In this document: positions 22,168-34,576 of the stretch, piece after piece
Numbering within the stretch: the stretch's first letter is position 1
How the letters are laid out: each line of letters opens with the position of its first letter
From: Bacillota bacterium
GTDB taxonomy: Bacteria > Actinomycetota > Aquicultoria > Aquicultorales > Aquicultoraceae
DNA length: 64,000 nucleotides
Assembly: GCA_023511485.1 (NCBI GenBank)
Contig: JAIMBH010000001.1
Location: 1-64,000, forward strand
Reading direction: 5' to 3'
The notes under the pieces: model-generated
Databases searched by the model: none
Told to the model about the DNA's origin: nothing
Seen by the model: the letters and a program-made list of their open reading frames with translations, nothing else
Position numbers and translations under genes: made by a program

Positions 22168-22196
22168 TTGAAATATTAACTATTAATGCCTAATAT
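22168..22196 (+). promoter_or_regulatory. Housekeeping-type promoter for the SQR-like gene
   Basis: TTGAAA (22168-22173), a 17-base spacer and TAATAT (22191-22196) form a good sigma-70 pattern about 70 bases upstream of the start codon at 22267. Confidence 0.55.
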
Positions 22197-22266
22197 AGAA
22201 TTCAGTACATTATTGGTAAAACGATTGTCAGATAATATATGGGTTGCAATTTTGGAGGTAGCTGGG

Positions 22267-23418
22267 ATGACTAAGATTTTGGTTATTGGCGGTGGCAGCG
22301 CCGGTATAATGACTGCCGCACGGCTGAGAAATGAGCTTACGCCCGAGGAGGCCGAGATAACGATCGTTGAGCCGAGCGATTATCACATTTATCAGCCTGC
22401 ATTTACTCTAGTGGTATTCGGTGTCGAGAGCCCTGAAAAAATTAAAAGGCCCATCGAAGAAGTGATCCCGCAGGGATGTAGTCTTGTAAAAGATGAGCTT
22501 GCCAGCTTAAATACCGACGAGAATTACATCGAGACAAAAAGCGGGCAAAGACTTGACTATGACTACTTGATTCTCGCAACGGGTGCAAGGCCGGTGCTTG
22601 ATGATATAGTCGGCCTTGAGGAAAACCTAGGCAAAAACGGTATTCACGACTTTTACACCTTTGAGGGCGCGCTGCGCTTGAGGGAAGCGATAGAAAAGTT
22701 CGAAGGTGGAAACTTCGTTGTTGTGCAGCCCCCAATGCCGTTTAAATGCCCGGGTGCTCCAATAAAGATGGCGCTTATGGCCGATGATTACTTCAGAAGA
22801 AAAGGCATAAGAGACAAGGTAAATATAACCGTGACGTCAACTCTTGCCTCGGTATTTACCCGCGAACCATACAAGAGTAAGTTCGACCAGATTTTTGCAG
22901 AGCGCGGGCTCAATGCGGTTCCTAAGTTCAACCCGGGAATCATCGATGTCGAGAGGAAAGTTATCAAAGCCTGGGAAGGTACAGAAGTGCCTTATGATAT
23001 AGCGGTCGTCATACCACCCAATGAGGGACAAACCGTATACGAAGACTCAGATATAGCCGATGCAAGCAACTTTATCCGTGCCGACAAGCACTTGCTTGTA
23101 TCTGACAGCCATGACAATATCTATCCGGTAGGCGATGCAAGCGGCATCCCTGCATCAAAGACAGCCTCAGGCGCAAAGAAGCAGGCCGAAGTCATCACAT
23201 TTAACCTGATTGCTAAAATCAAGGGTGAAGAAACAGCGGCAAGCTACAGCGGCCTAGTCTCCTGCCCGATTCTCACTGGGTTTGGTAAAGCTATTTTCGC
23301 GGAGTTTGATTATGAACAATCGCTATCGCCGGCCCAAGAGTCTTCTTCCAGCTGGACGTTTATGACTCAGGGCATGATGCCAATATACTGGGATTATATG
23401 CTGACCGGTAAGATTTAG
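22267..23418 (+). CDS. Sulfide:quinone oxidoreductase-like flavoprotein
   Basis: Two-dinucleotide-fold flavoprotein of the SQR/FCSD family. Visible are the FAD motif ILVIGGGSAGIMTAARL at the start, the YLILATGARP-type second motif, and the active-site cysteine regions PFKCPGAP (about residue 160) and SCPILTGFGKAIFAEF (about 335). A flavin-contact block, YPVGDASGIPASKTASGAKK, lies near 285. It would oxidise sulfide to polysulfide and reduce membrane quinone, though related enzymes act on other thiols. ATG 22267 is preferred because TTGGAGG sits nine bases upstream; the longer frame from 22186 overlaps the promoter. The quinone link would match the membrane hydrogenase and cytochrome c in this window. 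Confidence 0.85.
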   Translation: MTKILVIGGGSAGIMTAARLRNELTPEEAEITIVEPSDYHIYQPAFTLVVFGVESPEKIKRPIEEVIPQGCSLVKDELASLNTDENYIETKSGQRLDYDYLILATGARPVLDDIVGLEENLGKNGIHDFYTFEGALRLREAIEKFEGGNFVVVQPPMPFKCPGAPIKMALMADDYFRRKGIRDKVNITVTSTLASVFTREPYKSKFDQIFAERGLNAVPKFNPGIIDVERKVIKAWEGTEVPYDIAVVIPPNEGQTVYEDSDIADASNFIRADKHLLVSDSHDNIYPVGDASGIPASKTASGAKKQAEVITFNLIAKIKGEETAASYSGLVSCPILTGFGKAIFAEFDYEQSLSPAQESSSSWTFMTQGMMPIYWDYMLTGKI

Positions 23419-23498: not shown

Positions 23499-24712
23499 CC
23501 AACCCTTTTTAGAACTAAAATTGCGACATCATCGGTAAGCCTGCCACCAGTAAAGCGGATTGCCTCATCTTTTAAATTCTCGGCAATTGCGCCAGCTGAT
23601 AAGTGTTTCTTTTGGCTGGCAATCTCGGTGACTCTTTCGACGCCAAAAAAGCCCTCTTTGCCCCGTGCCTCAATTAGCCCATCGGTATAAGCTACAAAAA
23701 CGCCCTCCATATCCAGGCGGGTTTCATAAAGCGAAAAAACCGCCTCCTCTTCTATTCCAAGTGCAATACCGCCTGGCTCTAACAGGCGGCAATTATCCGT
23801 GCAGAGAATAGGCTCTGGGTGGCCTGCGCTGACCAATCTCAGATGACCGGGTTCTTTGTATGTTCCAGCAAGAGCAGTAGCAAAATGCCCGCTCGGAAGC
23901 TCATCTTTTAGTATCCTATTGAGCCTGTCCATGGTCTCAACCAAACCCGTGCGCTCACGCATAAATCCCCTAAAAAGATAGCGAAGCATAGCGGCATCCG
24001 TTGCAGCCTCAAGGCCATGGCCGGATAGATCGCCCACTATAAAAGCAGCTTCATGCGGGTCGATTTGAATTAAATCGACAAGGTCTCCCCCAACCCGAGT
24101 TCGTACTCCTGACGGGATATAGATGTGAGCTATATCGAGGTCTATTGCCTTCGACGGTATATCCGGAAGCAAGCCCTCCTGCACAAGTCGTCCAACTTCG
24201 GCTTCTTCAAGTAACGCTTTTCGGTACACCTGGAAATAAGAAGTAGCAATAGCGGCAAGGGCAGCATGTAAAAACTCATCCAACTGCAATAGCCAATATA
24301 TCGCTTTATCTGAAGGTTTTTTAAGCAAGAAAGGCAAGTAGCTTTCCTCAAGAAAGTGCAGACTGATGATTAAAGCCTCATAAGGAAAATCTCTGCGGGC
24401 GAGGTCCGCACCAGCTTTCTCTAGATTCTTGATGCATTGCTCAAGCTGCCGCGTGAGCATACAAGAGAGCATATCGTGAAAAATATCTCCAAAAACCTGC
24501 TCTATCTCCTGGCGGGTGTAAGTCGGCGGTTGGTAGGCTTTATACTGTGCTTCTACCCATCGCCGAACAATCTCTTCTTCGTGGGGAATAAGAACCTCTG
24601 CGACCTCTTTTAACGTATCCTTGCTTGCCGGGGCAAACTCTAAAACACGGTATCCCGAAAAACTGGTTTCATCTCTGTTGTTCTGTTCTTTAAAACTGCG
24701 CTCTATATTCAT
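23480..24712 (-). CDS. PP2C-type serine phosphatase, RsbU/SpoIIE family
   Basis: A 410-residue signalling phosphatase. Residues 25-170 form an all-helical sensor region (HEEEIVRRWVEAQYKAY, then FHFLEESYLPF-like helices) resembling RsbU-type or globin-like input domains. Residues 190-400 are the SpoIIE PP2C domain with metal-binding aspartates in RVGGDLVDL and VGDLSGHGLEAA, plus VAYTDGLIEARG. It would dephosphorylate an anti-sigma-factor antagonist in a general stress cascade; no such partner genes are adjacent. ATG 24712 starts it. It is likely monocistronic. Confidence 0.9.
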   Translation of the reverse strand: MNIERSFKEQNNRDETSFSGYRVLEFAPASKDTLKEVAEVLIPHEEEIVRRWVEAQYKAYQPPTYTRQEIEQVFGDIFHDMLSCMLTRQLEQCIKNLEKAGADLARRDFPYEALIISLHFLEESYLPFLLKKPSDKAIYWLLQLDEFLHAALAAIATSYFQVYRKALLEEAEVGRLVQEGLLPDIPSKAIDLDIAHIYIPSGVRTRVGGDLVDLIQIDPHEAAFIVGDLSGHGLEAATDAAMLRYLFRGFMRERTGLVETMDRLNRILKDELPSGHFATALAGTYKEPGHLRLVSAGHPEPILCTDNCRLLEPGGIALGIEEEAVFSLYETRLDMEGVFVAYTDGLIEARGKEGFFGVERVTEIASQKKHLSAGAIAENLKDEAIRFTGGRLTDDVAILVLKRVGLPSTK

Positions 24713-24749
24713 AATTGCAATTATAACCCGTTTTGGCTAAAAAATCTGG

Positions 24750-26039
24750 CTATACCGCCGATGGAAAAGTGCCCGGCATTTCTCCTGTTTTTGGTTCTGT
24801 CGGAAAAGGATGAAGCGCGGATGTTGTATCGATATGTAAAAAGGCATCATAGGCTTCATCTAGATACGTCTCTATGTAATTCGGAAACTCAGAATTTGGG
24901 TCGTAGACGACGCCAACTGTCCTATGGCTCCTTTTTTCCAAAAACAACTCATTTCTTGCCTTATGGCGTGAAAAAAGAAGGAGTCTATTTTTTTCGCCCA
25001 GGTTGTGCAACACGCTCTCCCAGCTGCCATATATCGCAGGCGGCAGCTCCATATCTCTTACTGGTGCATCCCAATCATAAGCAGCCACGACCCTGCCTTG
25101 AAAAGTGCCAAAACCGATAAGGTATGCCTCATCCTTCCCGAGTCTCTCCCTTACTAGTTGGCCTACGCTGGTCTCACTTCTATCTGCCATCTCGGTAGCC
25201 CCAGCATCGCATATATGGGCATTGTGTGCCCAAATTATCCCTTTTGCTTCAAAGGTTTTTCCATGGAACTCGCGTAGCCGAAAGAATGTGTTTGCCATGT
25301 GTTGCTCACGCAAGTTCCATGTATCTGGGTCACCTGTCGGCATAACCCGGTAATACCGTTCGGCATCTACGACAGCCAGAGCATTTTGCTCTGCATTGAA
25401 CCTTTCCTCTGTATCCGCAGATTTTGCAGGCGGGAGATGCTGAAGCGAAGTTAAAAACTTCGCAATGTCTTCTTCGCACGATTCGGATACCAACGCGATT
25501 GTCCATTTATGCCCATCGATATCGCGCCTTTGCGGCTCAAAACACCGATAAACCTGCCTGGCGGTCTGTGCCGCTTCGGGGACTGTTTCCTCCAGGTACT
25601 TAACCGCCATACTTAGAGAGTCCCACAGGCTGTAAAAATCAAGGCCATAGAACCCAACCTTTTGCTCATCTGAAATGCCAGTATTATATTCTGCAAGCCA
25701 TCTGATAAAATCCAGAGTTTCATAGTTTGCCCATATCCAGGTTGGCCAGCGGTTAAAAACATAAAGGATATCTTCTGCTTCCAGACCTCTATTTATTACG
25801 CCCTTGACATAGCGGTTTACCTCATAGCAATGAGGCCAGTCACCCTCAACCGAAACAAACGAAAATCCCTTTTCTTCAATAAGACGCTTGGTAATATTGG
25901 CCCGCCATTTATAAAACTCGGCCGTACCATGCGTCGATCCACCTATCAATACCGCGCGCCTGTGGCCGGCATGCTCTATTAGAAGGTCTAGATCACTTTC
26001 AGTTTCAAGAGAATATGAGATATTTTCTATATCGTCCAT
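24750..26039 (-). CDS. Erythromycin esterase-like protein
   Basis: A 429-residue member of the erythromycin esterase family (Ere-like / succinoglycan-biosynthesis related). Conserved catalytic-site surroundings are GGSTHGTAEFYKWRANITKR (His and Glu), VEGDWPHCYEVNRYV, WANYETLDFIRWLAEYN and WAHNAHICDAGATEMA. Such chromosomal homologues usually have unknown substrates, so macrolide hydrolysis should not be assumed. It ends 37 bases before the phosphatase start on the same strand and could be co-transcribed with it. ATG is at 26039. Confidence 0.85.
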   Translation of the reverse strand: MDDIENISYSLETESDLDLLIEHAGHRRAVLIGGSTHGTAEFYKWRANITKRLIEEKGFSFVSVEGDWPHCYEVNRYVKGVINRGLEAEDILYVFNRWPTWIWANYETLDFIRWLAEYNTGISDEQKVGFYGLDFYSLWDSLSMAVKYLEETVPEAAQTARQVYRCFEPQRRDIDGHKWTIALVSESCEEDIAKFLTSLQHLPPAKSADTEERFNAEQNALAVVDAERYYRVMPTGDPDTWNLREQHMANTFFRLREFHGKTFEAKGIIWAHNAHICDAGATEMADRSETSVGQLVRERLGKDEAYLIGFGTFQGRVVAAYDWDAPVRDMELPPAIYGSWESVLHNLGEKNRLLLFSRHKARNELFLEKRSHRTVGVVYDPNSEFPNYIETYLDEAYDAFLHIDTTSALHPFPTEPKTGEMPGTFPSAV

Positions 26040-26627
26040 TGCACTCTTAAAGTACCCATTATCTTAGGCTTTTTGTCAGGATGCCAATAAAGGCATTTCG
26101 GGCGATCTGTTGCAAAGCATGGCAACTGCGTCTTTAATGTTTTTAAAGGTTCATAGTTAACAAAAACAACAAAGCATACAAAAGATTTCTGTAAGGAATA
26201 CTAAACCCGCCATGGATGATATGAAAGTAAGCCTGCTAAAATGATTAGTTTTTAAAATTTTAAAAACTGCACTTAATCGAACAAATCGCTGATGTTAAGG
26301 CTGTTGTCTTAACTCATTCGCGCAGCTAATTGAGCTTGTAGTAAACTACAATATCTTTAAAACCACAACCGGTCAGTGCTTGATTCTTATTAAAAATCAG
26401 GCTAAGTTTAAACAAGCAATGGTTACAGTCAGCAATACCACCTGAATGTTGCATAATTACCGGCTAGATGGCTGACATAACCGCCTTAACAACTGGATTG
26501 ACTCGCCGAGCGATTTGAGTCAAGTAGCATACTGGCACTAGACATCTACTTAGATATAACCCTACTGATTAAGCAATAATGAAGTCAGCAAACGTAGCAA
26601 GAAATCTCCTAGAATTGAAGGAATACG
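26040..26627. other. Long intergenic region without a recognised gene
   Basis: 588 bases between divergent genes. Both promoters must lie here. Small inverted repeats are visible (GTTAAG with CTTAAC near 26294-26313, and TTGTAGT with ACTACAA near 26336-26351), but there is no protein-like frame, no T-run terminator and no riboswitch I recognise. Confidence 0.4.
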
Positions 26628-27506
26628 ATGCCAAGATATGTAGTACTAATTATTAGCACACTGATTTTCAGCTCGTGTGTAAGCTCGCTTGTCTGGGTGG
26701 CCACGCAGCAAAGCGTTAAAGCCGAGATACCTAAAGAATCTAAAAAAGAGACAATAGCCATAACTAATAAACCAGTTAAAATACCCAAAACCGCTGCAGC
26801 AGTTACAGCGCTTGATACAACATCGACTATAAACGCAACTTCAACAGCCGAAGAAACTAAAACGCTTTCAGCCGAAACCACCCAGACACTTTTTATTAGC
26901 GAGGTAACAGCAACGGTACCAGCCGTAGAGACAACCTTTACATCTCTAACTCCCCTGTCAATTACAGGCTCGGAAACAACCGAAACGGCCCCAAGCGATA
27001 CAGCAACCTCTACTGTTCTGGCTTCGCCAGAACAGGATGTCGTATCGGCTCAGCCATCACAGGATTCAACTTCCACTGCTCCCAGTCCGTTTGCCATTAA
27101 AGGATTGTCAACTCGCGACCTGGCGGCATCTGTTGCTGATAAATACGCCATCCCGCAAAACTTGTTTTTTGCGCTTATTAAACAAGAATCAGGCTGGAAT
27201 TACAAAGCGTGCTCTAGGGTAGGAGCGCTAGGTTTAACCCAGGTAATGCCGTTTAACATTACTGCCATGGGTTATGATGTCGAGACGTTTAAGGACTCAC
27301 CCGTACTCCAACTCGAGCTTGGCGCAAGAATCCTTAGTGAGAATTTCTCAACCTTTGGGCGTTGGGATTATGCGCTTGCGGCATATAATGCCGGCCCAAA
27401 TGCAGTCATAAAGTATGGTGGAATCCCGCCGTATGAAGAAACCACAAATTATGTGCGCTCGATTCTTGCAATGGCTGAGCAGTATGAAAGCGAATCAAAA
27501 CAATGA
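26628..27506 (+). CDS. Soluble lytic transglycosylase with Thr/Ser-rich linker
   Basis: Exported peptidoglycan lytic transglycosylase. A signal-anchor lies at residues 1-28. A low-complexity Thr/Ser/Ala/Glu linker spans about 35-165 and may be extended or glycosylated outside the cell. The SLT domain occupies about 170-285, with the catalytic Glu in LIKQESGWNYKA, then GALGLTQVMPFNI and AYNAGPNAVIKYGG. ATG 26628 follows AAGGAA. The TGA at 27504-27506 is an ordinary stop at the normal domain end, relevant to the recoding question. It cleaves glycan strands in wall turnover or insertion of envelope machines. Confidence 0.92.
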   Translation: MPRYVVLIISTLIFSSCVSSLVWVATQQSVKAEIPKESKKETIAITNKPVKIPKTAAAVTALDTTSTINATSTAEETKTLSAETTQTLFISEVTATVPAVETTFTSLTPLSITGSETTETAPSDTATSTVLASPEQDVVSAQPSQDSTSTAPSPFAIKGLSTRDLAASVADKYAIPQNLFFALIKQESGWNYKACSRVGALGLTQVMPFNITAMGYDVETFKDSPVLQLELGARILSENFSTFGRWDYALAAYNAGPNAVIKYGGIPPYEETTNYVRSILAMAEQYESESKQ

Positions 27507-27789
27507 TCAATCCGCACAGACTTAGCTACTATAAGATAAATCATCGCAGCACTTTTAGCCTGCTAGCTTACCCCTACTTTACCCTCTTATACCTTTGAAA
27601 AGCCCGAGTTTACATTATTCAGCTATAAAGACCAGTAGCGAAAAAGCCCTTAAGATAAGATTGAAGATAAATCTGAGAGAATTTGGCTACAAAATAACTG
27701 GCTGATGCGGCTTTAAAGCCAGCAGTTTACGTGCGTTTAGCTAAACCGTATAAGGGTACAAACGCCTCATAGTAAAAAGGAGCATAACA

Positions 27790-28314
27790 ATGAGGTGGAT
27801 TTTGCCAACCGCAATAATCCTAATAATAGTGGGGCTAGTCGGACTTTTTATAGTCAACTACTATATGTTTACACCAGCCCAGCCAGGCACTATCCGGGTA
27901 CCTGTACGCGGACCTGGCACACCATTTCCTTCGGGAAGCTTTAGAAGCAACGGCGAGCAGATATTTTTTACTGGCACCAGCTCTAGAGATACTATAACAA
28001 CCACAGGCGGGCCATTTTGGTTTCAGATGCATGGCGGGGGCTGCGCCACCTGCCACGGCCCGGATGGTCGCGGTGGTAGGGTTGTAATGATGGGTACTTT
28101 TGAGGCACCTAACATTACATACAAAGTTCTTACCGGCAAAGCCCCTGGCCTGGAAGAAGGACATAAACCTTTTACAGATAACCTCATTAAGCGTGCTATC
28201 ACGCGGGGTATCGATTCGGAGGGAAACAGGTTAAGCTTGAATATGCCCCGCTGGCATATGTCTGATCAAGACCTAAACGACGTAATCAACTATCTAAAAA
28301 CATTGGAGCCTTAA
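27790..28314 (+). CDS. Membrane-anchored monoheme c-type cytochrome
   Basis: A 174-residue cytochrome c with an N-terminal transmembrane anchor (about 4-26), a Pro/Gly-rich linker and one heme motif, CATCH (about residues 82-86), followed by GPDGRGG. The likely distal methionine is in LNMPRWHM (about 155), and the tail helix NDVINYLKTLEP is typical of class I cytochromes. It would carry electrons on the outer face of the membrane. ATG 27790 lies behind AAGGAG. The next gene, the TGA-containing SHOCT protein, starts 15 bases after its stop with its own strong ribosome binding site, so the two form an operon. Confidence 0.9.
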   Translation: MRWILPTAIILIIVGLVGLFIVNYYMFTPAQPGTIRVPVRGPGTPFPSGSFRSNGEQIFFTGTSSRDTITTTGGPFWFQMHGGGCATCHGPDGRGGRVVMMGTFEAPNITYKVLTGKAPGLEEGHKPFTDNLIKRAITRGIDSEGNRLSLNMPRWHMSDQDLNDVINYLKTLEP

Positions 28315-28329
28315 GAGGAGGAGTCAGTT

Positions 28330-28599
28330 ATGCCATGCCCATTTTGACCCGGTGGAGGATTTGGCTTTGGAGGAGGCCTGGGATTTATAATCAGCCTAAT
28401 TTTTACTTTAATATTGTTAGCTGGGCTCGGATTTTTGATCTGGTGGATAGTAAGGCAAGCAAGTGCAGGAAGGTATGGTGCTCCTGGCGGGCCACCGCCT
28501 ACAAGCCGTGCCCTTGAAATCTTAAACGAAAGATATGTTAAAGGCGAGATTAGTAAAGAAGAATACGAGGAGAAAAAACGTGAATTAACAGCAGGTTAA
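28330..28599 (+). CDS. Small SHOCT membrane protein with TGA at codon 6 (candidate selenoprotein)
   Basis: A very strong site, GAGGAGG, lies eight to nine bases before ATG 28330. The frame reads M-P-C-P-F, then TGA (28345-28347), then PGGGFGFGGGLGF and continues open to TAA at 28597-28599: 89 residues in all. After a Gly/Phe-rich start come one transmembrane helix (about 18-42, ending LIWWIVRQ) and a C-terminal SHOCT domain (ALEILNERYVKGEISKEEYE, about 66-85). No ATG, GTG or TTG after the TGA has a comparable ribosome binding site, and an internal start would cut into the helix. Read as selenocysteine, the motif is C-P-F-U, a CxxU redox pair next to the membrane. Trp decoding cannot be excluded from this gene alone. 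It lies in an operon with the cytochrome c gene. Confidence 0.72.
28363..28378 (+). promoter_or_regulatory. SECIS-like hairpin after the SHOCT-gene TGA
   Basis: GGCTTT (28363-28368) pairs with GAGGCC (28373-28378), six pairs including two G-U, around the loop GGAG. The loop starts 21 nt after the TGA and begins with G, within the bacterial SECIS rules. Two wobble pairs make it weaker than the mtnA hairpin. Confidence 0.4.
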
Positions 28600-28623
28600 T
28601 TAAGAAGGAACGGCCCCCTGAAG

Positions 28624-28641
28624 CTTGCGAGTTTTCGCAAG
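28624..28641. other. Short hairpin downstream of the SHOCT gene
   Basis: CTTGCGA (28624-28630) pairs with TCGCAAG (28635-28641) around GTTT. There is no T-run, so termination is uncertain. The convergent HD-domain gene ends at 28763. Confidence 0.35.
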
Positions 28642-28762
28642 AACTTGTAAGTTGGACCGGTTTGGAGCGTTGTTTTGCTGTTTAGCTTTTTCAGGGATAT
28701 CAGGCGCGTCCTTATCCTCTCCAACGCTAGGCTTAAGAACTCCGACTTAAACCTAGCAAGAT

Positions 28763-30007
28763 TTAGCTGACATACTCCATAAGTTTGCCCTGCTTGCGAA
28801 GTACATTAATTAACGCCCTTATGACCTTAGGGTCAAATTTCATACCCTGGTCTTTTTTCATCCGACTTATAGCCTGGTACGATGTTAGCTTTTCTTCAAA
28901 GGCATCCCCTCTTGTAAGCTTGTCGAAACAGCTTGCAGCGTTAATGATGCGTGCACCAATTGGAATATCCTCAGGCGATTTTGCGCGATCGATTGGAAAG
29001 TGATGCTTTCGAACCATATCTGCCGCGTCTTTTAGGAAATCTACCTGCTCCATAACCTCAGCACCCATTATGGCATGGGGAGCTTCCCCGCTTTGGGAGC
29101 TCGTCTGTTCAAGCAGCTGATCAAGGGAGTCCTCATCAACGCCAAGCAGCCCGATATCGTGAAGCAGTGCAGCATAACCGATTAGCTCTAATTCGCGACC
29201 GTGTATCCCTATCTCTTTAGCAATATCCACTGAGTAATTAGCAACCCTTCGCCCATGGCCATGGCGGCTTGGATTTTGAGCTTCAATTGCATTAGCCAGT
29301 GCCTCGATAGTCTTTCGGTAAACATTTCTGATGTCCAGAAAAGACTTAAAAGATAGCCTCGCTACCGATAGCGGAAGAAAAAATACTATAAGACTCCAGT
29401 AACCCATTCCCCTATACATAAGGGCAAGCAGCATGCCGATAGATGAAAGCGAGAGATATATTGGACCTAGAAACCGGATAGCGGATACAAAACCTGGGAT
29501 ATAAGGAGTCCCCCTTCTAAAAGCAATAGTTAGCTGATCTAAACCAAGATCGATTAAAATATAAACTCCGCACGCTATTAAAAGGGACAAAAGTCCGTAG
29601 AACGGTTCAATCTTTCCAGGCCTTCCGCCAACGTAGTAAAAAACATACGTTGAAGCGAAAGTCGCATTAATCTTAAGCGATAGCGGAAAGGCATTTCGGG
29701 CTAAAGCAATTTTAAATTGCTTTATGATAGCTGAAGCAATTATGCCTATTAGAATAATGACCAGAGTATCAGAAATTGGAAAGAGAATAATGCTTGCGAT
29801 GATAACTGCCGTGTCAATGTGAAGCTTTCCGCCTTGGGGCAACTGGATATCGAGAAGCCTACTGCCCGCTAAAGCAGCAGCAAAAAGAAGCACGGGAAGG
29901 ATATGCCCTGCCGAAAACCTCGGCAAGAAATAAACAAGTATTGCAAGCCCCGAGAGCATAGATAACGCCTGCAATAATATGAGTTTATACGGAATCTTCA
30001 ATCGCAA
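28763..30007 (-). CDS. Membrane HD-domain signalling protein (degenerate HD-GYP)
   Basis: A 414-residue protein with about six to eight N-terminal transmembrane segments (1-220) resembling the sensor part of the preceding gene, and a C-terminal HD phosphohydrolase domain. The HD pair is in AALLHDIGLLG, after RRVANYSVDIAKEIG. The region that in HD-GYP c-di-GMP phosphodiesterases reads HHERxDGxGYP is here HHFPIDRAKSPEDIP, so the GYP loop is lost and catalysis is doubtful. TTG 30007 starts it, overlapping the preceding gene by 23 bases, with GAGGAG upstream. The pair looks like a tandem duplication with one diverged copy. Confidence 0.8.
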   Translation of the reverse strand: MRLKIPYKLILLQALSMLSGLAILVYFLPRFSAGHILPVLLFAAALAGSRLLDIQLPQGGKLHIDTAVIIASIILFPISDTLVIILIGIIASAIIKQFKIALARNAFPLSLKINATFASTYVFYYVGGRPGKIEPFYGLLSLLIACGVYILIDLGLDQLTIAFRRGTPYIPGFVSAIRFLGPIYLSLSSIGMLLALMYRGMGYWSLIVFFLPLSVARLSFKSFLDIRNVYRKTIEALANAIEAQNPSRHGHGRRVANYSVDIAKEIGIHGRELELIGYAALLHDIGLLGVDEDSLDQLLEQTSSQSGEAPHAIMGAEVMEQVDFLKDAADMVRKHHFPIDRAKSPEDIPIGARIINAASCFDKLTRGDAFEEKLTSYQAISRMKKDQGMKFDPKVIRALINVLRKQGKLMEYVS

Positions 30008-31289
30008 TTTTTAACTGCAACTCCTCTATCTCATAGTCCTTGTCTTCAAGCGATATACCTGAGGCTTTTATAAAAGCCTCGACAACCCTTGGGTCAAACT
30101 GGCTACCGCTACAGGCAACAAGCTCTGCAGCTGCTTCTTTAGCGCTTAAAGCCGGTCGGTAAGAGCGAGTCGATGTCATAGCGTCGTAGCTATCGGCAAC
30201 GGTCATTATCCGAGCAAGAAGCGGTATCCTGTCTCCCGATAACCCTTCAGCATAGCCAGTACCGTTTAGCCGTTCGTGGTGATAGTAAACTGCAGGGACC
30301 GCTGATTTTAAGAAATCGATATCTCCTATTATCTCAGCCCCTATTCCAGGATGTGCCTGGATACGCTTAAACTCATCATTGGTAAGCCTCCCTGGCTTGT
30401 TCAGTATCCTGCGGGCAATACCAACTTTACCTATATCATGGAGAAGTGCGGCATAGCGAAGTGTTTCAATCTTATCGTCCGGGAGCTTCAGCTCTCTAGC
30501 CATCATCTCGGCATACCTGGCAACTCTTTCGGAATGACCTCGCGTATAAGGATCTTTTGCCTCAAGCGCCTGGACGAGCGCACTTACTGTATCGACATAA
30601 GCGCTTTTTAGGTTCATATAAACCTGAAAAGTCTGGCGGGCGATGAGAAGCGGAATGATAAGAAGAATTATGCTTGCCGGTCCGGATGTCACATATATTT
30701 GAGCAAGAATAAGGCCGAGGATACCGAGCGCATAGTAATTTGGGATCAGCCACTGGAAATTGTACCGCCAGGTATTGATAACCGACTCGTTATAGAGTAA
30801 CGCCACCGCCAGAGCGATCAGGGCGGTATTTATGATGAAAAAAACGGTTGATGAGACAACTACCGGAAGGATAATAAACGGAAAATCAGATGCTGCAATG
30901 CTGCCGGTAGAGCCACCGAAAAGCATATAGGCATACCCCGCCGCAAAAGCGGATATGATGTAGTTGCAAGCGCTAAAGACCATCTTATACCAGGGTATCT
31001 TGTTTCTTATATCACTTATATTAACAACAGTAATTAAGCTTGCTATCGTGGCGACCCACGGCCCAAACATAAGAATTGTTGCAAATATTATCGAGAAGCT
31101 AACTGAGATAGAGGCCTTTTTAGGCAGCCCAATCGTAAACGAGTCGGCGATAAATATAAGCAGCGCAAAAAAAGCGACCTCAGTCCAGGGTACTTCTGGT
31201 TTCATGATCAGACTCACAACCAGAATCACTATCGCCGCTACATAAAGGCTATAAAAAAGTGCTCTTGCTCTTGTCGGGACATCTTTCAC
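29985..31289 (-). CDS. Membrane HD-GYP domain phosphodiesterase
   Basis: A 434-residue protein with about seven transmembrane helices (10-215) followed by an HD-GYP domain: HSERVARYAEMMARELKL, HD in AALLHDIGKVGI, the HHERLNGTGYAEGL loop (GYA in place of GYP), and ADSYDAMTSTRSYRPAL. Most metal ligands are present, so it may hydrolyse c-di-GMP or a related cyclic dinucleotide in response to a membrane signal. It overlaps the next HD gene by 23 bases, implying coupled translation. No GGDEF cyclase is seen in the window. The start codon at 31289 and the first residues, MKDVPTRARAL, fit a cytoplasmic N-terminus. Confidence 0.88.
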   Translation of the reverse strand: MKDVPTRARALFYSLYVAAIVILVVSLIMKPEVPWTEVAFFALLIFIADSFTIGLPKKASISVSFSIIFATILMFGPWVATIASLITVVNISDIRNKIPWYKMVFSACNYIISAFAAGYAYMLFGGSTGSIAASDFPFIILPVVVSSTVFFIINTALIALAVALLYNESVINTWRYNFQWLIPNYYALGILGLILAQIYVTSGPASIILLIIPLLIARQTFQVYMNLKSAYVDTVSALVQALEAKDPYTRGHSERVARYAEMMARELKLPDDKIETLRYAALLHDIGKVGIARRILNKPGRLTNDEFKRIQAHPGIGAEIIGDIDFLKSAVPAVYYHHERLNGTGYAEGLSGDRIPLLARIMTVADSYDAMTSTRSYRPALSAKEAAAELVACSGSQFDPRVVEAFIKASGISLEDKDYEIEELQLKIAIEDSV

Positions 31290-31349
31290 GACTTCAGGTG
31301 CTTTTGTATTATCTTTATTACTTGCTAGATAATTGCGGTTGCAAACTCA

Positions 31350-31384
31350 CCGCATTTTCTAAATCTTAGATTTAGAAAATGCGG
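31350..31384 (-). terminator. Long hairpin after the small peptide gene
   Basis: CCGCATTTTCTAAATC (31350-31365) pairs perfectly with its complement (31369-31384) around a three-base loop. It sits between the tiny minus-strand frame at 31404-31484 and the HD-GYP gene, so it may end the small transcript or attenuate read-through. Confidence 0.6.
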
Positions 31385-31403
31385 ACCGACACCAAAAATC
31401 AAA

Positions 31404-31484
31404 TTATCCTAACCGACCACCGGCGCCGCCGGCGAGTATTAGGCTTGCGAGGGCGGCAAGAGTCATTAAAATACGAGCCTTCAC
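31404..31484 (-). CDS. Candidate 26-residue hydrophobic small protein
   Basis: GTG 31482-31484 is preceded by GAGGAGG at a good distance. The frame encodes a basic start (MKARILM) followed by a hydrophobic run (TLAALASLILAGG) and a Gly/Arg tail, ending in TAA. A strong hairpin follows 20 bases later. Ribosome binding site, hydrophobic segment and hairpin make a coherent tiny gene, either a small membrane peptide or a leader for the HD-GYP operon. No family is recognised, and a frame this short could be chance. Confidence 0.42.
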   Translation of the reverse strand: MKARILMTLAALASLILAGGAGGRLG

Positions 31485-31618
31485 TTAAAGACCTCCTCTT
31501 TGGGTTTTCTCTCTACCTCCGCTAATTATTAGAGAGATCACTACCGCTCCGCTAGTTTAAGTTAAAATTGTTGAGTCAGTTTAAGTCCAAAATATTTGAT
31601 GTCGGTCCAATACTCAGC

Positions 31619-32266
31619 TTATGCGGTTATCAAAATACCTAATCGCCTGTTTACAGCATCTAGAACCGCTTTTACTATTGTCTCGCGCTGGTCACCCTTT
31701 ACAAAGGCACAACCTATGACCGTCTCCTCTTCGCTTATGCTTAGTATAGCAATTGATACGATAACTGCCATATCCCTGCCTAAACTAATAGCGGTGATAT
31801 CCTCAAGTGAGAGGCAATAGGAATCTGGAATTAACTGTTCCACGGCTTTGATGGTAGCAAGAGCTACCAATCTTAGACGCCCTACCCTTGACGCAGGTCC
31901 TAATTCAACTCCCTCATACTTATTGCTGCCATACTCAAGAGTTACTGTAACCTGCGCCTTCTGGCCAAAAATCTCGTGTTTAACCGATGTAAGCTTTGGC
32001 CTTGAACTTGCTATCCTCGCATCCTGGGTATTTATCAAGGCAATACTTATCTTGCGGTGATTGACCGGAAGGCCGTACTTTGCCATTAAAACCGATTCGA
32101 TATCGCGTGCTAATTGTTTCGGGCCCCTTGAAGAATCGGCTAGGATATGAATTTCTTCGATATTTTGTTCGGAATCTACGACTATTCGAGCTGCCTCAAC
32201 TGCATCGATCTGACACAACGAGTTCTCAATCTCATCGAGCGAAAACTTCTCGACCATAGGACTCAT
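31619..32266 (-). CDS. Conserved-looking hypothetical protein
   Basis: A 215-residue soluble protein that I do not recognise. The N-terminal half (residues 10-75) has an alternating alpha/beta pattern (VEAARIVVDSEQNIEEIHIL, then LARDIESVLMAKYGL) like a small ACT- or ferredoxin-like fold. The C-terminal half (105-210) is a second alpha/beta unit (RVGRLRLVALATIKAVEQLI, then VIGCAFVKGDQRETIVKAVL). There is no signal peptide, membrane segment or obvious catalytic motif. ATG 32266 follows AAAGGA. Composition and codon use look like neighbouring genes, so it is very likely real. Confidence 0.6.
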   Translation of the reverse strand: MSPMVEKFSLDEIENSLCQIDAVEAARIVVDSEQNIEEIHILADSSRGPKQLARDIESVLMAKYGLPVNHRKISIALINTQDARIASSRPKLTSVKHEIFGQKAQVTVTLEYGSNKYEGVELGPASRVGRLRLVALATIKAVEQLIPDSYCLSLEDITAISLGRDMAVIVSIAILSISEEETVIGCAFVKGDQRETIVKAVLDAVNRRLGILITA

Positions 32267-32391
32267 GGTATATCCTTTGCAACTAAGTTCTTACTTGCTA
32301 AAAAAGTAAAAGCCCTACATACACTGCAACAACTGTTTTATCCGGCGGTCACATGGTTTATCAAGTGAGACATCTCACCATTCGAAATTCG

Positions 32392-32952
32392 TTAGGCCTT
32401 CCCGTGTATGGGTTCGATCAATCCATAGTTATGATCTTTTCTCTTGTATACGACATTAATTTCTTCAGTCTCCGCGTTGGTAAAAACAAAGAAGTCGTGT
32501 CCCAGCAGCTCCATCTGCATGGTGGCTTCTTCTGGGACCATCGGTTTGACCGCAACTTGTTTTACTTTGACGATTCTAGGCCCTCTTTCCTCCGCTTCGC
32601 CTTCCTCAATTTTTGCTTTTGCAATCTCGCCTAAACCTGGAGCGCTCTTCGACGACTTATACGTCTTGTTCTTATACCGTTTTACTTGCCTTTCAAGCTT
32701 GTCCACAACCATATCTATAGACGCATACATATCACCGGAAGATTCTTTTGCTCTGAGGATAGGCCCCTTTGGGAAAACAGTTACCTCAACGGTCTTAGAA
32801 TTTACAATGCTGGGGTTTTTCTCATCGGTGAATTCGATCTCTATTTTCTGTATCTGGTCAAAGTATTTAGTTATCCTTCCTATTTTATCTTCTGCGTATG
32901 CGCGAAGCGCATCTGTGACATTTATGTGCCTGCCTTTAATGATGATTTCCAT
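32392..32952 (-). CDS. hpf: Ribosome hibernation promoting factor, long form
   Basis: A 186-residue long-form HPF. Residues 1-100 form the ribosome-binding HPF/RaiA domain (MEIIIKGRHINVTDALRAYAEDK, with SGDMYASIDMVVDKLERQVKRYKNK). A variable linker (100-128) is followed by the dimerisation domain (about 130-186, KPMVPEEATMQMELLGHDFFVF). It pairs 70S ribosomes into inactive 100S particles in slow growth. ATG 32952 sits behind GGGTGG. It lies 1.3 kb from the comFC gene and the raiA-like RNA, and that RNA class is named for its association with this gene family. Confidence 0.95.
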   Translation of the reverse strand: MEIIIKGRHINVTDALRAYAEDKIGRITKYFDQIQKIEIEFTDEKNPSIVNSKTVEVTVFPKGPILRAKESSGDMYASIDMVVDKLERQVKRYKNKTYKSSKSAPGLGEIAKAKIEEGEAEERGPRIVKVKQVAVKPMVPEEATMQMELLGHDFFVFTNAETEEINVVYKRKDHNYGLIEPIHGKA

Positions 32953-33153
32953 ATTGCCACCCCCATCGGCGATCTTTGATTATCTCTATACCGATTATCT
33001 CTATATAAACCATCGGCTATATTTGAGGAGTAAATGACATAAACGGCTCGGTAATTAGATTTTTCCCGTTTATACTAATAGTTTACCTTAAAACGGAATC
33101 AATAGAAATTCAAAGCGATATGAGAGCCCTCCGTAGAAAGGCCTGGCTAAAAC

Positions 33154-33222
33154 TTGCTTGGTTTATCCTCCCAGGTTAACCTGGTTTATTGGCAAGGCTA
33201 CCTATTATTATAAACCAAGCAA
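33154..33222. repeat. Nested inverted repeats between cspA and hpf
   Basis: Outer arms TTGCTTGGTTTAT (33154-33166) and ATAAACCAAGCAA (33210-33222) are perfect complements. Inside lies the 14-bp palindrome CCAGGTTAACCTGG (33171-33184). On the minus strand this would fold in the transcript upstream of hpf, downstream of the cspA terminator. It may be a 5'-leader structure, a second terminator or a protein site. Confidence 0.45.
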
Positions 33223-33248
33223 TAAAAAATAACACCGCTAAATGGAAA

Positions 33249-33274
33249 ACCCCATGCATAAAAACACATGGGGT
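33249..33274 (-). terminator. Terminator of the cold-shock gene
   Basis: ACCCCATG (33249-33256) pairs with CATGGGGT (33267-33274) around a ten-base loop and is followed on the minus strand by TTTTCC. It lies 28 bases after the cspA stop codon. Confidence 0.75.
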
Positions 33275-33301
33275 GTTGTTGGTCTTGGTTCTTATTTGCC
33301 C

Positions 33302-33505
33302 CTAAACCATTTTCTGCACATTTGCAGCCTGAGGACCGCGTTCACCCTGTACGATTTCAAACATCACTTTTTGCCCTTCGCTAAGGGTTCTAAAGCCGTC
33401 CTCAGCGATTGCAGAAAAGTGCACGAATACGTCATCTCCACTTTCTTGCTCGATGAATCCGTAGCCTTTTTCCGCGCTAAACCATTTGACCGTTCCCTGA
33501 AGCAC
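33302..33505 (-). CDS. cspA: Cold-shock protein, CspA family
   Basis: A single S1-like OB-fold RNA chaperone of 67 residues. Both RNA-binding motifs are present: KGYGFIEQ (RNP1) and VFVHFSAI (RNP2), after the standard [11 protein letters not shown] opening. Of two in-frame GTG codons, 33505 has AGGAGG five bases upstream, while 33511 overlaps that site, so the shorter form is chosen. It melts structured mRNA in cold or stress. It has its own terminator. Confidence 0.93.
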
Positions 33506-33889
33506 GTGCACCTCCTAAAACATGCAACCAACAACTGAAGCCAAGCACTCCATGTGGTTTGTCAAATAACCAACATGATAGTGCCTCTAGTTTATACATA
33601 TCATTAGACCGATTTATTGACCAGGTAAATATTGTCATATTGTTAAGTTATTCCATAACTAGCCAGGCCGTCTTGAACCAGTTTTAACATGTAAAACACC
33701 TCGTAAATGGCATAAGAGATAATTTACCGCTGTGAAAAATTATTTGGTAATAATTTTTTGCCCAAAGTTAATACATTTGTATTGTAAGACAACATTCGAA
33801 GGATGATAATGATTGTCAATAAAATAGTTAATCGTATCGGCAGGCATCTATTACTTACCCGCCATACAATTAATAAGGAAATGGCGCTT
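33506..33889. other. Divergent intergenic region, cspA / comFC
   Basis: About 380 bases upstream of both genes, expected to hold the cold-shock leader and promoters. A TTGACA-like box reads leftward near 33552-33560 without a clear -10 partner. No other gene is supported; the open codons between 33803 and 33889 are only an upstream extension of comFC without a suitable ribosome binding site. Confidence 0.35.
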
Positions 33890-34576
33890 ATGCTAAAGAG
33901 CATCCTTGATTTACTGTTTCCTCCAAGATGTAGAATTTGCAAAAAGGTAGCTTCTGATCCCATATGCGAAAGTTGCGCCGGAAGCTTTATGAGAATTGCT
34001 GGCAATCTTTGCACTAAATGCGGAAAGCCCTGTCTAAGAGAAGTAAGCATGTGCCGGGATTGTTCTGGTAAAACGCTCTACTTTACCTGCGCCCGTTCGG
34101 GTGGAAGTTATGCTGGAGCACTAAAAGATGCGATTCGCCATCTTAAGTACAAAAACGGCAAGAAGCTTGCCCCACACCTGGCCCGGTTTGCCTCTAAAGC
34201 AGCAGCCGAGTTCATCGATGATATCAGTGCAATCGCTTTTGTACCGCTGACTGCACAAAAAGAGGCAAAGCGTGGTTATAACCAATCGCACCTGATAGCG
34301 CAAGAGCTTGCAGCTATTTATAATAAACCGCTATACAGAGGGTTAATAAAAATTAAAAATACCCCTGATCAAAATAAACTTGGTCTTATTGAGAGGTCAA
34401 AAAATGTCAAGGGGGCTTTCGAGCTCAATTTACCTATAAAAGGTAAAATACTTCTGGTCGATGACGTATATACCACAGGAAGCACTGTAAACGAATGCGC
34501 ACAGCAGCTTATAAAAGGCGGTGCGGAAGAGGTGTTCGTGTTAACTGTAGCAAGGACACCACTCGGTGGGACATAG
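33890..34576 (+). CDS. comFC: ComF family phosphoribosyltransferase-like protein
   Basis: A 228-residue ComFC-type protein. Residues 10-50 form a zinc finger with paired cysteines (CRICKK, CESC, CTKCGKPC, CRDC). Residues 55-225 are a type I PRTase fold with the PRPP loop VDDVYTTGSTVNECAQQL and a substrate region VPLTAQKEAKRGYNQSH. It is linked to DNA uptake in competent bacteria and found widely in others. ATG 33890 is preferred to the far longer frame from 33803 because AAGGAA lies nine bases upstream and the protein then begins MLKSILDLLFPPRC, as in the family. It is followed after 49 bases by a structured RNA. Confidence 0.9.
   Translation: MLKSILDLLFPPRCRICKKVASDPICESCAGSFMRIAGNLCTKCGKPCLREVSMCRDCSGKTLYFTCARSGGSYAGALKDAIRHLKYKNGKKLAPHLARFASKAAAEFIDDISAIAFVPLTAQKEAKRGYNQSHLIAQELAAIYNKPLYRGLIKIKNTPDQNKLGLIERSKNVKGAFELNLPIKGKILLVDDVYTTGSTVNECAQQLIKGGAEEVFVLTVARTPLGGT

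Follow-up and report, generated by a model that had tools for sequence, protein, structure and literature searches.

A small gene in the 64,000-nt stretch of DNA analysed here, referred to below as the window, very probably encodes a real selenoprotein, which would be the founder of a new family. Our best reading of the sequence data is that this family, which we call Sec-SHOCT, has its host in the Candidatus Aquicultor family of the Actinomycetota. The assignment of selenocysteine (Sec) to codon 6 is well supported by comparison with related genomes, from which we infer its actual insertion. The comparative evidence covers the reading frame, the alternation of UGA with Cys codons, the Sec machinery, a SECIS-like hairpin and a conserved gene pair with a cytochrome c.

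An in-frame TGA in a small membrane protein gene

The Sec-SHOCT gene occupies positions 28330..28599 of the forward strand, on which the other features of this locus are also located. It specifies 89 residues, with Sec as residue 6, and ends with a TAA stop codon at 28597-28599. When the in-frame TGA at codon 6 (28345..28347) is read as U, the translation is MPCPFUPGGGFGFGGGLGFIISLIFTLILLAGLGFLIWWIVRQASAGRYGAPGGPPPTSRALEILNERYVKGEISKEEYEEKKRELTAG, which contains the motif C-P-F-U. The original prediction had placed a strong ribosome-binding site before the ATG at 28330, and indeed an AGGAGG is present at 28316..28321, 8 nt ahead of this start codon; GGAGG or AGGAGG precedes the gene in all relatives. 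It had also described 83 codons downstream of the TGA as encoding a Gly-rich segment, one helix and a SHOCT domain, and this layout was confirmed. The single long helix (28378..28470; residues 17-47), taken as a membrane span on the basis of an AlphaFold model and the hydrophobic sequence, is followed by the SHOCT domain (28510..28587; residues 61-86), which scored 37.3 bits with Pfam PF09851 at a curated cut-off of 27. This was the sole family above cut-off, the matches to GvpG, VbhA and DUF1707 being weaker and each under its own cut-off, and no NCBIfam model matched the protein. The standard list of open reading frames held just a 61-aa fragment of the gene, starting at an internal TTG.

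The AlphaFold single-sequence model of the protein consists of the long helix and the SHOCT helices, with a pLDDT of ∼92 for residues 21-40 and a pTM of 0.33. At such a pTM the model is uninformative on function, and a search for its fold against the PDB returned nothing at E <= 0.001. A plasmid collection gave no match to Sec-SHOCT, and the viral contigs searched gave three weak partial matches that involved the helix only.

Codon 6 alternates between TGA and a cysteine codon

Orthologues were collected by searching the proteins of 60 related genomes and by scanning the genome contigs. C-P-F-TGA was found in eight genes from seven genomes of one family, namely G000 (the window genome), G002, G004 (two copies), G006, G007, G009 and G010. 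Three further genes, in G001, G005 and as a second gene in G002, read C-P-F-TGC and thus carry Cys, while TGG was found at codon 6 in none of the 11 orthologues of the window's family when their DNA was read. The check proposed with the original prediction, the identity of codon 6 across relatives, thus showed TGA alternating with TGC (8 versus 3) and never with TGG. In an alignment of the 11 sequences, in which Sec was entered as C, the columns of Cys-3, Pro-4 and Sec/Cys-6 were invariant, and the Gly-rich segment between the TGA and the helix was conserved. A homologue from another family of the same class (G012) starts with MNWCPWC, has a CPWC motif and is likewise located behind a related cytochrome c gene.

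The pattern AGGAGG-N5-9-ATG-N0-6-TGY-CCN-TTY-TGA was present at nine sites when 397 genomes from the phylum were scanned. These nine sites were distributed over eight genomes, all belonging to the window's family, whereas the reversed control pattern had no match in the same 397 genomes. The arrangement is thus more than a chance occurrence, and this result speaks against the sequencing error at 28345-28347 that the original prediction had named as a possible objection. One of the nine sites, in G008 (L159:1514, G008:C22), belongs to a decayed copy reading MPCPFUPGGNFGFDAGRT* behind a truncated cytochrome c gene, in a genome that has Sec machinery. A second decayed module, consisting of cytochrome c and CPFU parts, was observed in G005 (L083:6131 onward, G005:C173); it reads MFCLFUGDGDFGG (CLFU, with TGA) before the frame breaks, and it lies close to a gene for a CopA-like ATPase. 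The intact G005 copy is of the Cys type.

In a tree based on the SHOCT protein and the cytochrome c, the Cys form of G002 grouped with the Sec form of G007 (FastTree 0.96, IQ-TREE 91), and therefore at least one change between Sec and Cys took place within the family. The remaining placements disagreed between FastTree and IQ-TREE. Constraint on the protein sequence downstream of the TGA, as had been claimed, was borne out by low nonsynonymous differences alongside synonymous sites that, in most pairs, were at or near saturation. For the window gene and its G002 counterpart, dS was 1.55 and dN was 0.11. The dN/dS ratio amounted to 0.05-0.14 in the interspecies pairs with an estimable dS, and to 0.30 for G009/G010, which are very closely related. 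Upstream of the TGA, the codons varied synonymously among the relatives, with the exception of codon 2.

These data bear on two readings in which no Sec would be made. Conceivably, the TGA could be a true stop that closes an MPCPF leader peptide, with ribosomes re-initiating at an internal codon to produce the SHOCT protein. This group of genomes does use TGA as an ordinary stop codon, the same gene ending with TGA in G009, G006 and G010, and internal TTG and GTG codons are available. However, the internal starts lie within the helix, are mostly TTG or GTG and are not conserved in position. In agreement with the original prediction, no internal start of the window gene has a ribosome-binding site: two in-helix TTG codons occur within 55 codons and neither is preceded by one, while just one Sec gene has a weak site at such a start. 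Moreover, the Cys orthologues are translated through the same N-terminus from the same ribosome-binding site, and the Gly-rich stretch between TGA and helix is conserved. We therefore consider a true stop very improbable. Alternatively, the TGA might be read as Trp or by another near-cognate tRNA, or might represent a mutation or sequencing error, as a TGA in a single gene is only one base change away from TGG or TGC. Against this stands the TGA in eight independent genes from seven assemblies, at near-saturation of synonymous sites, and the fact that the alternative codon is always TGC/TGT and never TGG, which makes this explanation very improbable. The reading of codon 6 as Sec is the one followed below.

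Selenocysteine machinery in the family genomes

The window genome encodes SelA (551 bits), SelB (415 bits), SelD (369 bits) and a tRNA-Sec (76 bits) with the anticodon UCA. Its SelD gene itself contains one in-frame TGA, in the motif KSGUAAK. The presence of this machinery, together with the alternation of TGA and TGC, supports the original proposal of a candidate new selenoprotein with a C-P-F-U motif.

SelA and tRNA-Sec were detected in nine of the 11 genomes of the family, the exceptions being G010 (77% complete) and G001 (97% complete). In G001, SelA and tRNA-Sec were unmatched and neither SelB nor SelD scored over the cut-off; this genome carries the Cys form (TGC). Judging from its gene content, the Sec machinery has apparently been lost from the congener G001, which would represent a natural negative control. 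In G005, SelA, SelB, SelD and tRNA-Sec are all present, yet the intact copy uses Cys. G003 has the Sec machinery, and no Sec-SHOCT gene was found in it. No SelD over the cut-off was found in G002; since the SelA gene of G002 lies close to a contig edge, its SelD gene may fall in an assembly gap.

Two further observations were made in the window genome. At L003:1501-1593 (G000:C21:40225-40313) there is a 93-nt tRNA-Cys (GCA) that has an 8-bp acceptor stem, a long variable arm and a U before the CCA; its score with the tRNA-Sec model of Rfam was 57 bits, and it resembles the selC* tRNA-Cys. Such tRNAs are known from Firmicutes, Thermodesulfobacteria, Nitrospirae and Proteobacteria, a list from which Actinobacteria are absent (PMC7609411). 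A candidate second selenoprotein at 22186-23418 of the window was rejected, as its stop codon is TAG and the frame has no continuation. This flavoprotein scored 345 bits with the selenoprotein model for type III sulfide:quinone reductase, under the cut-off of 525 bits.

A SECIS-like hairpin downstream of the TGA

Bacterial SECIS elements have a loop of 3-14 nt, located 16-37 nt past the UGA, with a G among the first two loop bases. The hairpin with the loop GGAG that had been reported 21 nt after the TGA was found at 28363..28378; it has a 6-bp stem, and its loop (28369-28372) starts 21 nt past the TGA. All seven distinct Sec genes tested conform to the rule, with folding energies of -7.4 to -15.7 kcal/mol, and the SelD hairpins of the same genomes ranged from -6.4 to -8.7 kcal/mol. 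Among the Cys genes, the hairpin was almost absent from G005 (-0.9) and was kept in G001 (-6.9) and G002 (-11.7).

The hairpin of the window gene is of moderate stability and is set in Gly-rich codons, which favour hairpins. Of TGAs picked at random from the window, 9% were followed by a hairpin as good as this one, and of the GC-rich ones 20% were. Compared with synonymous recodings, the Sec genes all folded more stably than the mean (z -1.0 to -2.9), and so did the Cys genes. The five alignable Sec hairpins kept all pairs and included one both-sided change, a result that was equalled by 93 of 500 shuffles. A scan of positions 24000-34000 with Rfam did not detect a SECIS element or a riboswitch above the gathering score. 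As two of the three Cys forms keep the hairpin and the covariation is slight, the hairpin was rejected as stand-alone proof of Sec. It agrees with a SECIS function, with a modest separation from the Cys forms and from chance.

The gene is paired with a cytochrome c gene

Directly upstream of Sec-SHOCT, at 27790..28314, lies the first gene of the pair, which encodes a membrane-anchored monohaem cytochrome c of 174 aa. This protein has an N-terminal hydrophobic segment and one CxxCH motif (CATCH), and it scored 36.4 bits with PF00034 at a cut-off of 21.3. Its gene ends 15 nt before the ATG at 28330. The cytochrome c gene was found directly upstream in all 11 family genes and, because a gap of 12-21 nt is kept in every one of them, the two genes are probably co-transcribed, as judged from their arrangement.

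SHOCT genes without CPFU also adjoin a related cytochrome c gene at L060, L063, L064 and L019, which belong to other families of the class and to a Chloroflexi genome. Since the pairing thus occurs without the motif, it may predate the Sec form.

Proposed function

In the mechanism that we propose, the UGA at codon 6 would be decoded as Sec by SelB and the Sec-tRNA, aided by the downstream SECIS hairpin. The product would be a small single-pass membrane protein, with its basic segment and SHOCT domain in the cytoplasm and its uncharged N-terminal tail, bearing C-P-F-U, probably facing outward. All members of the family lack basic residues before the helix and have several after it. On the positive-inside rule, the protein is therefore probably N-out, and its CPFU tail would be exposed to the exterior, where the haem domain is also expected. 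There, on the outer membrane face, the CxxU pair would most likely form a redox couple of the thiol/selenol type that works together with the anchored cytochrome c from the same operon. The specific proposal that this tiny outward-facing protein serves as a selenium redox tag, passing electrons or thiol equivalents to the cytochrome c, is plausible but tentative.

Two other roles would be compatible with a selenoprotein. The CPxU/CPxC pair could bind a metal, of the copper or mercury type, rather than exchange electrons with the cytochrome. Proteins of metal transport are found among the known selenoproteins (PMC13188914), genes for heavy-metal P-type ATPases are located near the locus in G007 and G005, and G006 and G009 have a nearby gene for a cation ATPase. 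An ATPase neighbour was, however, unseen at most loci, the window included (the flanks being short), whereas the cytochrome c is constant, and we regard metal binding as a serious but less likely alternative. The UGA could also serve mainly as a selenium-dependent switch on the amount of SHOCT protein, as a failed insertion at codon 6 would stop translation at once. The Cys orthologues nevertheless retain the whole C-P-F-C, indicating that the residue itself is conserved, so such a switch is unlikely to be the main purpose of the codon.

Relation to known proteins

Sec-SHOCT resembles other small SHOCT membrane proteins (PF09851) in having one helix followed by a C-terminal SHOCT domain. Paralogues of this kind are encoded elsewhere in the window genome, and some adjoin a related cytochrome c gene in other families of the class. 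Most of these proteins, however, begin after the position of CPF[U/C] and lack the motif. SelD, which occurs in its selenoprotein form in the same genomes, shares the in-frame TGA and a hairpin of equal strength and position class with Sec-SHOCT, but is an unrelated protein.

The eukaryotic selenoproteins SelK and SelS are small and Gly-rich, with one membrane helix and Sec near one end, as is Sec-SHOCT. In SelK and SelS, Sec is located near the C-terminus, whereas in Sec-SHOCT it is residue 6 of 89. Homology was rejected, as Pfam returned no hit to a family of that kind; the likeness is thus as superficial as the original prediction had supposed, with Sec at the N-terminus and SHOCT as the sole Pfam family.

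With the bacterial CxxU selenoproteins (PMC13188914), Sec-SHOCT has in common the CxxU motif, Cys homologues, a UGA with a downstream hairpin and the Sec machinery, but its fold is not thioredoxin-like. An inventory of prokaryotic selenoproteins published in 2026, which comprises 119 families, contains none of the terms SHOCT, PF09851 and Aquicultor, and its table lists no such protein (PMC13188914). A search of open-access journal papers for SHOCT together with selenoprotein gave nothing relevant and one unrelated co-mention.

Selenoprotein genes are routinely misannotated because UGA is taken for a stop, as exemplified here by the fragment that the gene caller reported. Sec-SHOCT probably adds one family to the selenoproteins of an actinobacterial class that has received little study. 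The proposed electron transfer, if true, would constitute a partnership between a selenoprotein and a cytochrome c of a kind absent from the 119-family inventory. With its Sec and Cys forms, a congener from which the machinery has apparently been lost and a constant cytochrome c, the family offers a simple setting in which to study the reasons for retaining Sec in a small redox protein of the membrane.
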